Source: a virus
Virus record (IMG/VR): IMGVR_UViG_3300035660_000096
Span: 1 to 21,158 of that record
Strand: one strand, 5' to 3'
Length of the DNA stretch: 21,158 bases
Shown: positions 6,381 through 12,083 of the stretch, piece after piece
Position numbering within the stretch: position 1 is the first letter of the stretch
Layout of the letters: every line of letters starts with the position of its first letter
Position numbers and translations under genes: made by a program
Notes under the pieces: model-generated
What the model was told of the DNA's origin: nothing
The model's database searches: none
What the model saw: the letters and a program-made list of their open reading frames with translations, nothing else

Positions 6381-6998
6381 ATGAATGAATCTAATGACAT
6401 AGTTGTCTGGTCGGGTGGAATGGATAGTACTCTTGTGTTGGATAAACTATGCTCTTCTGGTAAGGGTATTTGGGCTTTTTCAGTAGTTTGGGATATGCTT
6501 GACGAATTGAAGACCAAACAGGAAAAGAAAGCAAGAGAAAATTATTTAGAATATGCAAAAGGTAAAGGGTACAATATATCTTATTATGAGATAAAGATTA
6601 CTGCCAATATGGGAGCAGAACATTTGGGATTACCCCAACTTCTTGGGTGGTGTTCATTTTTGATACCATATCTGCCGAAAGAATCAAATTTATATTTTGG
6701 ATATCATAATGGGGATGAATTTTGGGAGTTTGCTTTGGCCACCAGATATTTTATGGACTGGGCTACTTACATAGGAGAGAGGAAAGTGAAATTGGAATAT
6801 CCTTTAAAGAATATGAGAAAATACCAAATTTTGGAAGAATTTAGGAAGAGAGGAATTCCTTTTGATTGTGGGTGGACGTGCGAGACCCCCGTATTGAGAA
6901 GAAAAAAGATATTTAAATGCGGAAAATGTGGACCCTGTATTGCGCTAAAGTTGGCCGAATGTGAAGCTAAATTGAGAAATAGAGAGAAGACCGGATAA
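6381..6998 (+). CDS. queC: QueC-like 7-cyano-7-deazaguanine synthase family
   Basis: A 205-residue N-type ATP pyrophosphatase. The PP-loop is WSGGMDST at 10-17. The C-terminal zinc site is C180-x2-C183-x2-C186 (FKCGKCGPC), with C163 and C167 upstream (FDCGWTCETP). QueC turns 7-carboxy-7-deazaguanine into preQ0 using ATP and ammonia. The layout fits QueC better than other PP-loop enzymes, and QueD is encoded at 10199, so a 7-deazaguanine pathway is likely. QueE and FolE are not in view. The immediate neighbours are Mre11 and a coiled-coil protein, an unusual place for a biosynthetic gene. QueC-like enzymes also occur in anti-phage systems with other roles, so the substrate is not settled. Confidence 0.8.
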   Translation: MNESNDIVVWSGGMDSTLVLDKLCSSGKGIWAFSVVWDMLDELKTKQEKKARENYLEYAKGKGYNISYYEIKITANMGAEHLGLPQLLGWCSFLIPYLPKESNLYFGYHNGDEFWEFALATRYFMDWATYIGERKVKLEYPLKNMRKYQILEEFRKRGIPFDCGWTCETPVLRRKKIFKCGKCGPCIALKLAECEAKLRNREKTG

Positions 6999-7667: not shown

Positions 7668-8274
7668 GTACGAAAATTTCTTAAATCAGAAAAAAGCTAC
7701 TCAAGAACTCCTAAAGAGCAAAGCGAGTAAGCTTAACACTTCTATCGAAGATCGCAAAGCTCACCTCAAGGACCTTGAAGAAGCTTTGGATATCATGAAC
7801 ACTGTTGGCACTCTCGTCCAGCAGGAGTTTGAAGAAGTAGTTGAAGAACTGGTAACTCAAGCTCTAAGATTTGTCTTCGGTGATAGCTACTCATTTGAAG
7901 TTGAAAGTAAGATATCTCGTAATCAACCGGAAATTAATCTATATATCAATGTGGATGGAGAGAGGTATATTCCAGAAGACGATTCAAGCGGTGGAGAGAT
8001 GGATGTAGCGTCTTTTGCACTCCGAGTTATCCTGTGGGCAATTCAATACGATAGAACGGAACCTGTTCTAATTTTTGATGAACCCCTTCGCAATCTTTCG
8101 AGAAATCATATTGATTCGGTTAAAGAGATGATTCAATATTTGTCGGATACACTTAGAATTCAGTTAATTATTGTAACACATGAAAAGGAACTGGTTGGTT
8201 TAGGAGATTGTTCATATAATATTGTTAAGAAGAATGGCATAAGCTTTGTCGAAGGGAAGGAAAGCAATGCCTAA
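7654..8274 (+). CDS. Rad50/SbcC C-terminal ATPase lobe (split gene)
   Basis: A 206-residue protein carrying the second half of an ABC/Rad50 head. Residues 1-70 are a coiled coil, then FGDSYSFEVE and a beta region, the ABC signature SSGGE at 111-115, an ALRVILWAI helix, Walker B VLIFDEP at 138-144, a D-loop-like LRNLSRN and the H-loop THEKE (His176). There is no P-loop, so alone it cannot bind ATP normally and must pair with a Walker A lobe, most simply the protein at 3523. Its coiled coil (about 70 residues) is much shorter than that of the partner (about 180), and it lacks a zinc hook. GTG start with AGAGGAAG upstream. Confidence 0.88.
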   Translation: MDLNRYENFLNQKKATQELLKSKASKLNTSIEDRKAHLKDLEEALDIMNTVGTLVQQEFEEVVEELVTQALRFVFGDSYSFEVESKISRNQPEINLYINVDGERYIPEDDSSGGEMDVASFALRVILWAIQYDRTEPVLIFDEPLRNLSRNHIDSVKEMIQYLSDTLRIQLIIVTHEKELVGLGDCSYNIVKKNGISFVEGKESNA

Positions 8275-9124
8275 GTTAAAGAAGGTAGTTTGTGTTTGTG
8301 ATGGAGAATTTGAAATACCCTGGTGGAGCAGTCAAAAACACTGTTCTAAATTGTGTTACTATATGAGTATGGTGGGGAAGAAACAACCAGAAGAACTAAA
8401 TGAAAAAAGAAGTAAATCTCTTAGAGGTAGAAAGAAACCTGAAGGTTTTGGAGAGAAGATACAAAAAGCAAATATAGGTAAAAAACATTCTGAAGAGCAT
8501 ATAGAAAATTGGAAGAAGGCAAGAAGAGAAGGAGACAATTGGTTCCAATCCGAGGAAGCTAAAAAGAAGAACAGTAAGAGTCATGGTAGTGAAAAGTGTA
8601 GTAAGAGAATGTTGCTGAAGTGGCAAGATTCAGTATATAGAGAAAAAATGGTTGCTACTCACAGAGGAAAGTGTGGATTAAGCGCATCTAATTGGCAAGG
8701 GGGAAAGGTTAAAGTAATTTGTCAGCTATGTGGAAAGGAATTTCTTGTTAATCTACATAGGCGAGGCATTGCCAAATACTGCTCAATAGGTTGTAAAAAT
8801 AAAGGACGTGTGGGTAAAACCAATAGAGAGAAAAATTCTAATTGGAAAGGAGGGATAGCGAACCTTCCTTACCCCCTTGAGTTTGACAGGAATCTAAAAA
8901 AGTTCATCAGAACAAGAGACAACAACACCTGTCAACTCTGTAGCAAAACAAAAGAAGAGAATGGTAAGAACCTTTGTGTTCACCACATCAATCACGACAA
9001 AGATGATTTGTTCGAGCTCAATCTTATTTCTTTGTGCGGTGGTTGTAATGGTAAAGTAAACTCTAATAGGGGGTTGTGGGAGGATTACTTTGCATTTAAA
9101 TTGTTATATGGAGTAGAGAGCTGA
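8267..9124 (+). CDS. NUMOD3/HNH homing-type endonuclease
   Basis: A 285-residue protein. ATG 8267 is chosen because AAGGGAAGG lies 8 nt upstream; an in-frame TTG at 8246 is not needed. Layout: a zinc-ribbon-like start with CVCDGEF and CSKLC, a lysine-rich DNA-binding region with NUMOD3-like repeats (IGKKHSEEHIENWKKARREG), a second Cys pair (CQLCGKEF and CSIGC), NWKGGI, and a C-terminal HNH domain with NTCQLC, VHHINHDKDD and SLCGGCN. These free-standing nucleases copy themselves into related phage genomes. It overlaps the end of the Rad50 C-lobe gene by 8 nt. The upstream gene appears intact, so this is an insertion next to it and not a split gene. Confidence 0.88.
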   Translation: MPKLKKVVCVCDGEFEIPWWSSQKHCSKLCYYMSMVGKKQPEELNEKRSKSLRGRKKPEGFGEKIQKANIGKKHSEEHIENWKKARREGDNWFQSEEAKKKNSKSHGSEKCSKRMLLKWQDSVYREKMVATHRGKCGLSASNWQGGKVKVICQLCGKEFLVNLHRRGIAKYCSIGCKNKGRVGKTNREKNSNWKGGIANLPYPLEFDRNLKKFIRTRDNNTCQLCSKTKEENGKNLCVHHINHDKDDLFELNLISLCGGCNGKVNSNRGLWEDYFAFKLLYGVES

Positions 9125-10198: not shown

Positions 10199-10594
10199 AT
10201 GTTCAAAATAAAAAAGACATTTGAAATAGCTATAGCACACCACCTTAATTTAGATTATGACTCCCCCTGCCAAAGAATTCACGGCCACAATTTGAGAATT
10301 ACAGTTTGGTGTGCTTCGGAAAATCTTAACAAGGACGGCATGGTTATAGATTTTACGCAGATAAAGAAAAGGATTCAGGATAAGTTAGATCATAGAGATC
10401 TAAATAGTATTGGAGACTTAGTACATAACTTTAGTATGGAAAATGTAAATCCTACTTCTGAACGAATTGCAGAATGGATTTGCAATCAATTTCCTGCGTG
10501 CTATCGTGTAGACGTACAAGAGTCAACTGGGAATGTTGCTACTTATGAAGATGAAGATTTCTGGCTGAATCTGCACCTTAAAGGAGAAGGTTAA
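10199..10594 (+). CDS. queD: QueD / 6-pyruvoyl-tetrahydropterin synthase family
   Basis: A 131-residue T-fold enzyme. Zinc ligands: His14 (AIAHHLNL), His28 and His30 (RIHGHNLRITV). Catalytic Cys24 is in SPCQR. Further conserved segments are VIDFTQIKKR, KLDHRDLNSI, NPTSERIAEWI and the C-terminal Glu108 in VQESTGNVATY. QueD makes 6-carboxy-tetrahydropterin from dihydroneopterin triphosphate, the first step specific to preQ0. With the QueC-like protein at 6381 it points to 7-deazaguanine synthesis, for DNA modification or queuosine. AGGAGG lies 6 nt before the ATG, a strong site. Length is normal. Confidence 0.9.
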   Translation: MFKIKKTFEIAIAHHLNLDYDSPCQRIHGHNLRITVWCASENLNKDGMVIDFTQIKKRIQDKLDHRDLNSIGDLVHNFSMENVNPTSERIAEWICNQFPACYRVDVQESTGNVATYEDEDFWLNLHLKGEG

Positions 10595-10987: not shown

Positions 10988-11287
10988 GTGGTGAAGATAA
11001 TAACGAAAGCTATGATGATTAGAAAATCAACAGTAAATCTTAGTTATGGAAATATGGGTAAGATTATCTACATCAAAAATTTTCTATCCAGATATACTGA
11101 AGCTGTGAACAAATATATAGATTTACTGTGGAGCATTCAAAGATTTTATGGTTCTTTTGTAGAAAGAGTTTTGTTGGACCAAGTAAGTTGTCCTCTAACC
11201 TTCTCTGCTAAGCAATCAGCGGCCTGTACAGCTTTACACATTGTGAAATCTCAGAGAAAGAAAAAGAATAAGACAATACAATTTTGA
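10988..11287 (+). pseudogene. tnpB: TnpB N-terminal remnant
   Basis: A 99-codon frame from GTG 10988. It has the TnpB N-terminal pattern: IRKSTVNLSY, then FLSRYTEAVNKYIDLLW, then FSAKQSAACTALHIVKSQRK and KKNKT, the point after which full TnpB proteins enter the RuvC-like core. Here it stops three residues later at TGA (11285-11287). The RuvC Asp and Glu positions that should follow are missing. It keeps a readable frame, so a short protein may still be made, but nuclease activity is not possible from this part alone. Its frame is the same as that of the HNH gene, with only TGA between them. Confidence 0.75.
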
Positions 11288-11299
11288 AATGGGGGCAAT

Positions 11300-11926
11300 A
11301 TGCCAAGAGGAGTTTATAATCATAAACCTCGTTCCAAAGAAACAAGAGACAAGTATAGTATTGCAATAAAGAAAGCTCATGCTGACCCAAATTCTGGTTA
11401 TAACACCGAAGAATATAAAGAGAACCAACAAACCATTCATAAGAGACTAAGAACAGACCCAAATTCTGTTTATAATACTGAGGAGTACAAAGAAAATCAT
11501 AAAGTGTGCTGTTATAAAAGCAGGAAGCCTAGGGAAATTCGCACTTGTGCATTATCTGGATGTAATAAAACATTTGAATGTAAAATAAATAGTAAACAGC
11601 ATTTTTGTTGTAAAAGTCATGCGCATAAAGATAAATGTTATAATTGGCAAGGTGGAAAAACTTATTTCAAGTTAAATGGAGAACTAAAACGTCATGATAT
11701 TGTCTACAAAGAATTGTTTGAAAAACAAAACGGATTATGTGCAATCTGTGGCAAAGAAGAAACACATACTTTTAAGGGAAAAATTAAACAATTATCAATA
11801 GATCATGACCACAAAACAGGAGAAGTAAGAGGACTACTGTGTAATAAGTGTAATACGGGATTAGGGGGATTTATGGATAATGTAGAATTTCTACTAAAAG
11901 CAATTCAGTATTTGAAAGTAACATAA
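11300..11926 (+). CDS. Endonuclease VII-type HNH nuclease with NUMOD-like repeats
   Basis: A 208-residue protein. Residues 1-70 are a basic region with two near-identical copies of DPNSxYNTEEYKENxx (about 24 residues apart). A zinc-finger-like part with CALSGCNKTFEC and HFCCKSHAH follows, then NWQGGK. The C-terminal domain matches recombination endonuclease VII (T4 gp49 family): QNGLCAICG, SIDHDHKTGEVRGLLCNKCN, TGLGGFMDN and a final helix. Endonuclease VII cuts branched DNA; in this fused form it is more likely a free-standing homing nuclease. It sits exactly between the two tnpB remnants. The site GGGGGC is 4 nt before the ATG. The gene is visibly more AT-rich than its neighbours, a sign of transfer. 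Confidence 0.85.
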   Translation: MPRGVYNHKPRSKETRDKYSIAIKKAHADPNSGYNTEEYKENQQTIHKRLRTDPNSVYNTEEYKENHKVCCYKSRKPREIRTCALSGCNKTFECKINSKQHFCCKSHAHKDKCYNWQGGKTYFKLNGELKRHDIVYKELFEKQNGLCAICGKEETHTFKGKIKQLSIDHDHKTGEVRGLLCNKCNTGLGGFMDNVEFLLKAIQYLKVT

Positions 11927-12083
11927 AGAGAACCGTGTAGGTGAGTTGTTCTTGTGTAAGGAGTGTGGTTACACACAGGATGCAGATCTCAACGCATCTA
12001 GGAATATCTTGAACCGGTTCCTTACAGGAGCAGAATTGTTCGGACCCTGTCTAAAAAACTTGGAGGAGATCCGAGATGAATAG
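11922..12083 (+). pseudogene. tnpB: TnpB C-terminal remnant (half zinc ribbon and RuvC-III)
   Basis: In the frame ending at TAG 12081-12083, after a stop at 11919, the translation runs ENRVGELFLCKECGYTQDAD, then LNASRNILNRF and GAELFGPCLKN. This is the classic TnpB ending: the second CxxC of the zinc ribbon, and the RuvC-III Asp in the ADxNAxxNI motif. The first CxxC and everything before it are gone, and there is no start codon or ribosome site. The homology begins within a few nt of the HNH stop. The last 8 nt overlap the next gene. Confidence 0.8.

Follow-up and report, generated by a model that had tools for sequence, protein, structure and literature searches.

A phage locus in which an endonuclease VII-type HNH gene replaces the core of tnpB and is followed by a conserved omegaRNA-like structure

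Results

We analysed a 21,158-base virus fragment from the IMG/VR database (IMGVR_UViG_3300035660_000096; the whole fragment is called the window here) and studied its locus at positions 10988–12083. In this locus, the core of the gene for the TnpB nuclease is replaced by an HNH endonuclease gene, and the 3' piece of tnpB that is left behind contains a conserved RNA structure resembling the omegaRNA of TnpB elements. An earlier note on this DNA had described the layout of open reading frames (ORFs) at the locus. The layout was found as described, with codons 315–359 as the final TnpB piece. The locus was compared with two intact TnpB genes of the same clade on other phage contigs, L002 (IMGVR_UViG_3300031885_000358) and L003 (IMGVR_UViG_3300032062_000128). 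The features are as follows.

11015–11275, + strand: 5' remnant of tnpB, codons 1–87 (tblastn with the L002 TnpB, 88.5% identity, E 2e-45)
11276–11299, + strand: left junction, with the remnant's stop TGA (11285–11287) and a G-rich ribosome-binding stretch ahead of the HNH start (from the sequence)
11300–11926, + strand: complete HNH endonuclease gene, 208 amino acids (aa), core LSIDHDHKTGEVRGLLCNKCN intact (Pfam PF02945, PHROG)
11922–12059, + strand: 3' remnant of tnpB, codons 315–359 (tblastn with the L002 TnpB, 82.6% identity, E 1e-18)
11930–12060, + strand: putative omegaRNA scaffold (single-sequence folds, RNAalifold, covariance model, pair counts)
12061–12075, + strand: element 3' end, with a Shine–Dalgarno (SD)-like AGGAG at 12064–12068 in a GGAGATYYGA context (position common to L002 and L003)

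The TnpB Core Is Replaced by an HNH Gene

When the intact TnpB of L002 was searched against the window with tblastn, exactly two pieces matched, and nothing matched in between. Residues 88–314 of L002 (681 nucleotides, nt) are absent from the window, and about 646 nt are present instead. The homology with L002 and L003 stops at about the left junction. The sizes and the alignment to intact TnpBs show a replacement, as the earlier note had proposed, and the simple insertion of an HNH gene into tnpB was therefore rejected. The ORF of the 5' remnant extends from 10988 to 11287 (99 aa); its homologous start is ATG 11015, and GTG 10988 is a possible earlier start. The N-terminal piece is real, but its extent of about 95 residues had to be corrected to 87 codons. 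The 3' remnant encodes part of the zinc ribbon, namely its second half, together with the RuvC-III motif DADLNAS. It has kept its frame, lacks the tnpB start, and lies in a tnpB-like frame that is open at 11925–12074. Since the RuvC-III motif is still within the C-terminal piece, two of the three catalytic acids have been lost, namely RuvC-I D187 and RuvC-II E252 (L002 numbering, assigned from conserved motifs). The locus does not encode a full-length TnpB with the RuvC D-E-D triad.

The search of the two remnants against TnpBs gave the expected result, as both matched the intact TnpB of L002. The C-terminal piece also passed the Pfam cut-off for Cas12f1-like_TNB (PF07282; 29.9 versus 26.3 bits, E 6.4e-07), and it matched the NCBIfam model guided_TnpB with E 1.2e-06, under the cut-off of that model. 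The N-terminal piece gave no meaningful match in Pfam, NCBIfam or PHROG, and therefore its identity rests on L002 and L003; no relatives of it were found in INPHARED. The pairwise ratio of nonsynonymous to synonymous divergence (dN/dS) between this remnant and L002 comes to about 0.09 (0.074/0.79), a value that fits a divergence mostly older than the loss. In the C-terminal part, only 3 changes in 108 nt belong to the window lineage, too few to separate selection from recency. At the right junction there is at most short homology (shuffling p about 0.06 against L002 and 0.13 against L003), and at the left junction there is none; the two parents have no long identical stretch at either of them. 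A serine-recombinase tnpA upstream of tnpB, as in IS607 elements, was not found in the window, where the upstream ORF is GroES-like.

The two intact TnpBs (361 aa in L002, 374 aa in L003) are 74% identical to each other. They have the TnpB fold, as judged from an AlphaFold model of L002 with a predicted local distance difference test score of 77 and a predicted template modelling score of only 0.54. Foldseek matched this model to AsCas12f (E 4.6e-19), the ISDra2 TnpB 8h1j (3.7e-13) and the ISFba1 TnpB 8iaz (1.7e-12), and a sequence profile search found the same TnpB/Cas12f group. The model has a strand at residues 2–8, helices at 14–78 and the next strand at 95. In this model, the N-terminal remnant would span the first beta strand together with a REC-like domain made of helices, ending ahead of the strand at 95. 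An intact tnpB 55% identical to L002 was also found in the bacterium Candidatus Magnetobacterium casense (L052).

The HNH gene between the TnpB pieces ends with the stop codon TAA at 11924–11926. Its product passes the Pfam cut-off for Endonuclease_7 (PF02945; 79.7 versus 23.6 bits, E 1.5e-22, residues 136–206), and its best match among the endonuclease VII families of PHROG has E 5.7e-29. Together with the intact HNH core, this bears out the endonuclease VII-type assignment made earlier. We found no close relatives of this gene in IMG/VR, and the best ones among the INPHARED matches listed are under about 40% identical. The product may be an active homing-type nuclease.

A Conserved RNA Structure at the 3' Remnant

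The first paired base of the RNA, 11930, lies 3 nt past the HNH stop. The fold has an outer stem, in which GAACC (11930–11934) pairs with GGTTC (12016–12020), internal stems inside it, a 3' hairpin ACAGG/CCTGT (12024–12028/12046–12050) and an A-rich tail reaching about 12060. A covariance model was built from the window, L002 and L003. It matched the 3' end of the M. casense tnpB with 85 bits, two loci of the 85,471-base phage contig G001 (L006 with 77 bits and L007 with 39 bits), and one further locus at a contig start (L005). Among 296 genomes of the M. casense phylum, the model found only M. casense and one weak match without TnpB nearby.

All of the modelled pairs form in the window (33/33). 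Two-sided changes were counted in 16 of the 33 pairs in a 12-row, model-fitted alignment (A7), whose covariation score was 0.276; shuffled controls gave 0.146 (standard deviation 0.015), and slid ones did not exceed 0.100. The signal was weaker but present in a 6-row MAFFT alignment made independently: 88.5% of the cells were paired, against at most 48.5% when slid, and 11 cells were two-sided, against 4.9 in shuffles. The 3' hairpin, ACAGG/CCTGT in the window, L002 and L003, becomes CCAGG/CCTGG in L006 and L007. Thus, a search for conserved RNA structure near 11928–12083, which the earlier note had suggested, was successful with folds, the covariance model and pair counts.

The structured RNA lies at the 3' end of tnpB and reaches the end of the element. 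It is known that omegaRNA is cut by TnpB from its own mRNA, and the position of the window RNA agrees with this (PMC10278001). The conserved RNA at 11930–12060 fits the scaffold of a TnpB omegaRNA and, judging by its fold and position, may act as a guide RNA. The guide would begin in or just behind 12061–12075, ahead of the ATG of the next gene at 12076. The GGAGATYYGA-type motif was not found beside other genes of these contigs.

Copies of the RNA without TnpB

In the phage contig G001, the RNA occurs as two solo units, with no TnpB coding upstream. The genes in front of them were named by reading translations.

L006, 4002–4146: solo RNA unit (covariance model 77 bits), with a terminase-like gene upstream
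L007, 3996–4140: solo RNA unit (covariance model 39 bits), with a DnaB-like gene upstream

The L006 RNA starts immediately after TTTACTATAACCTAA, a phage promoter-like motif. The 10-mer TTTACTATAA has exactly four exact sites in G001, one of them upstream of the contig's tnpB and one before the L006 RNA. The L007 unit, with the weakest score of the RNA, has no promoter-like motif in front. The boundary of the solo copies is at codon about 316–319, nearly the same place as the edge of the HNH replacement in the window. Since the RNA is present without TnpB and L006 has a promoter-like motif in front, the guide-RNA module resembles a separate gene in this phage. The earlier suggestion of a guide-RNA-like tail is strengthened, since the piece retained at the 3' end holds a conserved RNA structure that another phage carries without TnpB; for conservation of the whole layout, no other copy was found.

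G001 begins with a further 3' end of the element (L042, 1–49), and its other end falls within a tnpB of the clade (L043), as if its assembly were broken at the repeated element. The sequence TTAAAGGTATAATTCCG was considered for the right end of the elements in G001 and rejected. Since unrelated loci of this phage have it too, it is a phage motif, the right end being nearer AAGTTA. With the guide start set at this rejected TTAAAGGTATAATTCCG end, only chance-level matches with 4 mismatches were obtained elsewhere in G001.

Relatives of the window phage were sought in IMG/VR through the downstream gene and the terminase. There were none, so no empty site was seen. The L006 locus also had no relatives in IMG/VR, and hence no empty insertion site for comparison with the guide and the transposon-associated motif. 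A scan for other HNH hybrids with a C-terminal pattern gave no new locus among viral contigs and no match among genome contigs.

Other Genes of the Window and More Distant TnpB Relatives

The window contains a second HNH endonuclease gene of a different family at 8246–9124 (candidate starts TTG 8246 or ATG 8268), which overlaps the end of an SMC/Rad50-like ORF. The translations at 6381–6998 and 10199–10594 read as QueC- and QueD-like, which suggests that the phage has a pathway of the preQ0 type for modifying DNA or nucleotides.

Some of the more distant TnpB relatives, L053 among them, have recombinase-like C-terminal ends upstream (from reading the translation). One genome, Desulfococcaceae bacterium HSG9, has three copies of a related TnpB (L048, L050, L055). 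The right ends of several relatives of this kind have TAACTA in common, and the phage clade of the window differs in this. In L014, a tnpB with in-frame stops lies between near-perfect direct repeats of 39 nt (GCATTCACAACATCACGG...AAGGAGAAAAA; upstream of 2501 and downstream of 3556). The repeat is a duplicated ribosome-binding region of the next gene.

Discussion

The alignments show that the HNH gene took the place of the tnpB core. On balance, we think it somewhat probable that this happened recently, that the N-terminal remnant is passive, and that the omegaRNA module was kept and can possibly be used by TnpB in trans. The ancestral state would be a phage-borne TnpB element without TnpA. 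A complete endonuclease VII-type HNH gene has been exchanged for the part that encodes residues 88–314, and the replacement would have halted where the omegaRNA module, which overlaps tnpB, has its 5' edge. The locus may now be 'HNH gene + omegaRNA', arranged like the earlier 'TnpB gene + omegaRNA'. The event was most likely recent and the 5' remnant a passive trace of it. The HNH transcript would be the source of the omegaRNA. TnpB supplied in trans, whether from another locus of the phage, from a co-infecting phage or from the host, could load it and cut at alleles without the element, and the HNH protein would contribute its own DNA cleavage. TnpB is regarded as acting on element-less alleles in the manner of a homing enzyme or gene drive (PMC10278001, PMC11870625). 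Therefore, given a supply of TnpB, a guide RNA without a nuclease gene could favour its own locus.

Several observations weigh against this explanation. The junction is known from a single contig, with no copy elsewhere and no relatives of the window phage in IMG/VR, and the 21-kb fragment contains no tnpB besides the remnants. The tnpB of G001 has an in-frame TAA (L043, about 2560). The RNA model is partly derived from the window, and the rows of A7 are mostly coding as well. Folding of the single window sequence hardly beats shuffles (z -0.85), and L007 has a z of +1.58. No Rfam family reached its gathering threshold for the RNA, so a known Rfam guide-RNA family was rejected. Finally, recency alone would explain the preservation of both remnants.

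It is quite possible, if short of probable, that the HNH gene displaced the tnpB core very recently by illegitimate or short-homology recombination, that the remnants and the RNA fold are functionless debris, and that the junction lies at the RNA edge by chance. This is possible because the remnants are well preserved, with open frames and similar identity to L002, and the small number of changes, such as those in the C-terminal part, does not allow selection to be separated from recency. Further points for it are a possible short homology at the right junction and broken tnpBs on other contigs of the set. However, the retained 3' piece begins nearly where the G001 solo copies do, and one of these copies has a promoter-like motif in front.

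The conserved RNA could also be a regulatory leader of the downstream gene, riboswitch-like or a terminator, that overlaps tnpB 3' ends by chance. There is a weak match to the PreQ1 riboswitch at 12008–12068 (18.6 bits, gathering threshold 39, E 0.21) in a phage with QueC/QueD-like genes, and immediately past the RNA comes the SD of the downstream gene. The match, which covers the 3' hairpin and the A-rich tail, is in our judgement probably a chance pseudoknot-like resemblance; the PreQ1-like A-rich tail is lost in L006 and L007. Moreover, the RNA is found in tnpB 3' ends across unrelated insertion contexts (L002, L003) and with an intact TnpB in M. casense, and its position agrees with known omegaRNAs (PMC10278001). 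Apparently, a leader is a very improbable explanation. An assembly or amplification chimera of a TnpB contig and an HNH contig is hardly to be expected either: the locus is on a single IMG/VR contig and its junction is unseen elsewhere, but the two TnpB pieces share their close relatives and stand in correct order, orientation and about correct spacing, and two joins would be required, with no long shared stretch at either.

Guide RNAs within tnpB 3' ends and apart from TnpB are already known. In IS200/IS605 and IS607 elements, the guide RNA is at the 3' end of the element, like the putative one in the window, and in IS200/IS605 it likewise overlaps the 3' end of tnpB. Unlike these elements, the window locus has no tnpA, and its nuclease core is gone, with an HNH gene instead. 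IS607 elements of the RAGATH-18 type have their RNA outside the ORF (PMC11061315), whereas the window RNA overlaps it. Of the RAGATH-18 RNAs, 64% adjoin an IS607 TnpB and 36% do not (PMC11061315). These RNAs and non-autonomous derivatives resemble our solo units in having no adjacent TnpB, but RAGATH-18 is another RNA family, and here there are phage solo copies, one of them behind a promoter-like motif, plus one HNH-bearing locus. IStrons combine a group I intron with an insertion sequence with TnpB into a chimeric mobile element (PMC4227781). They are similar in that two selfish parts are joined, but the window locus has no group I intron; a group I intron or IStron was rejected, as nothing in the window matched at Rfam gathering scores. 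Free-standing phage endonuclease VII-like HNH homing endonucleases share the intact HNH core and the position of a small gene between phage genes, but the window HNH gene sits in tnpB remnants and is followed by a guide-RNA-like module. TldRs are TnpB-derived nuclease-dead repressors in which the guide RNA is retained and the protein persists as an RNA-guided binder. The window locus has also lost the nuclease function and retained the guide RNA, but most of the protein is gone. We found no description of an HNH–omegaRNA hybrid or of promoter-linked phage solo omegaRNAs in the searchable literature, outside which most subscription papers lie.

The locus is a clear instance of one selfish nuclease overwriting another in a phage, with the loser's putative guide RNA left intact. 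This, and the occurrence of the RNA by itself at two loci of another phage, suggests that such guide RNAs can survive the loss of the nuclease gene to which they belonged. A tentative and rather doubtful extension is that phage omegaRNAs may be mobile in their own right, as promoter-bearing solo genes and HNH hybrids spread or kept by TnpB in trans. Together with the solo copies in G001, the locus yields a testable claim that TnpB guide RNAs can persist and act as separate phage RNA genes, with no nuclease gene adjacent. This bears on competition among phage homing elements and on the way in which guide RNA genes became separate from those of their nucleases, a step towards CRISPR-type systems.
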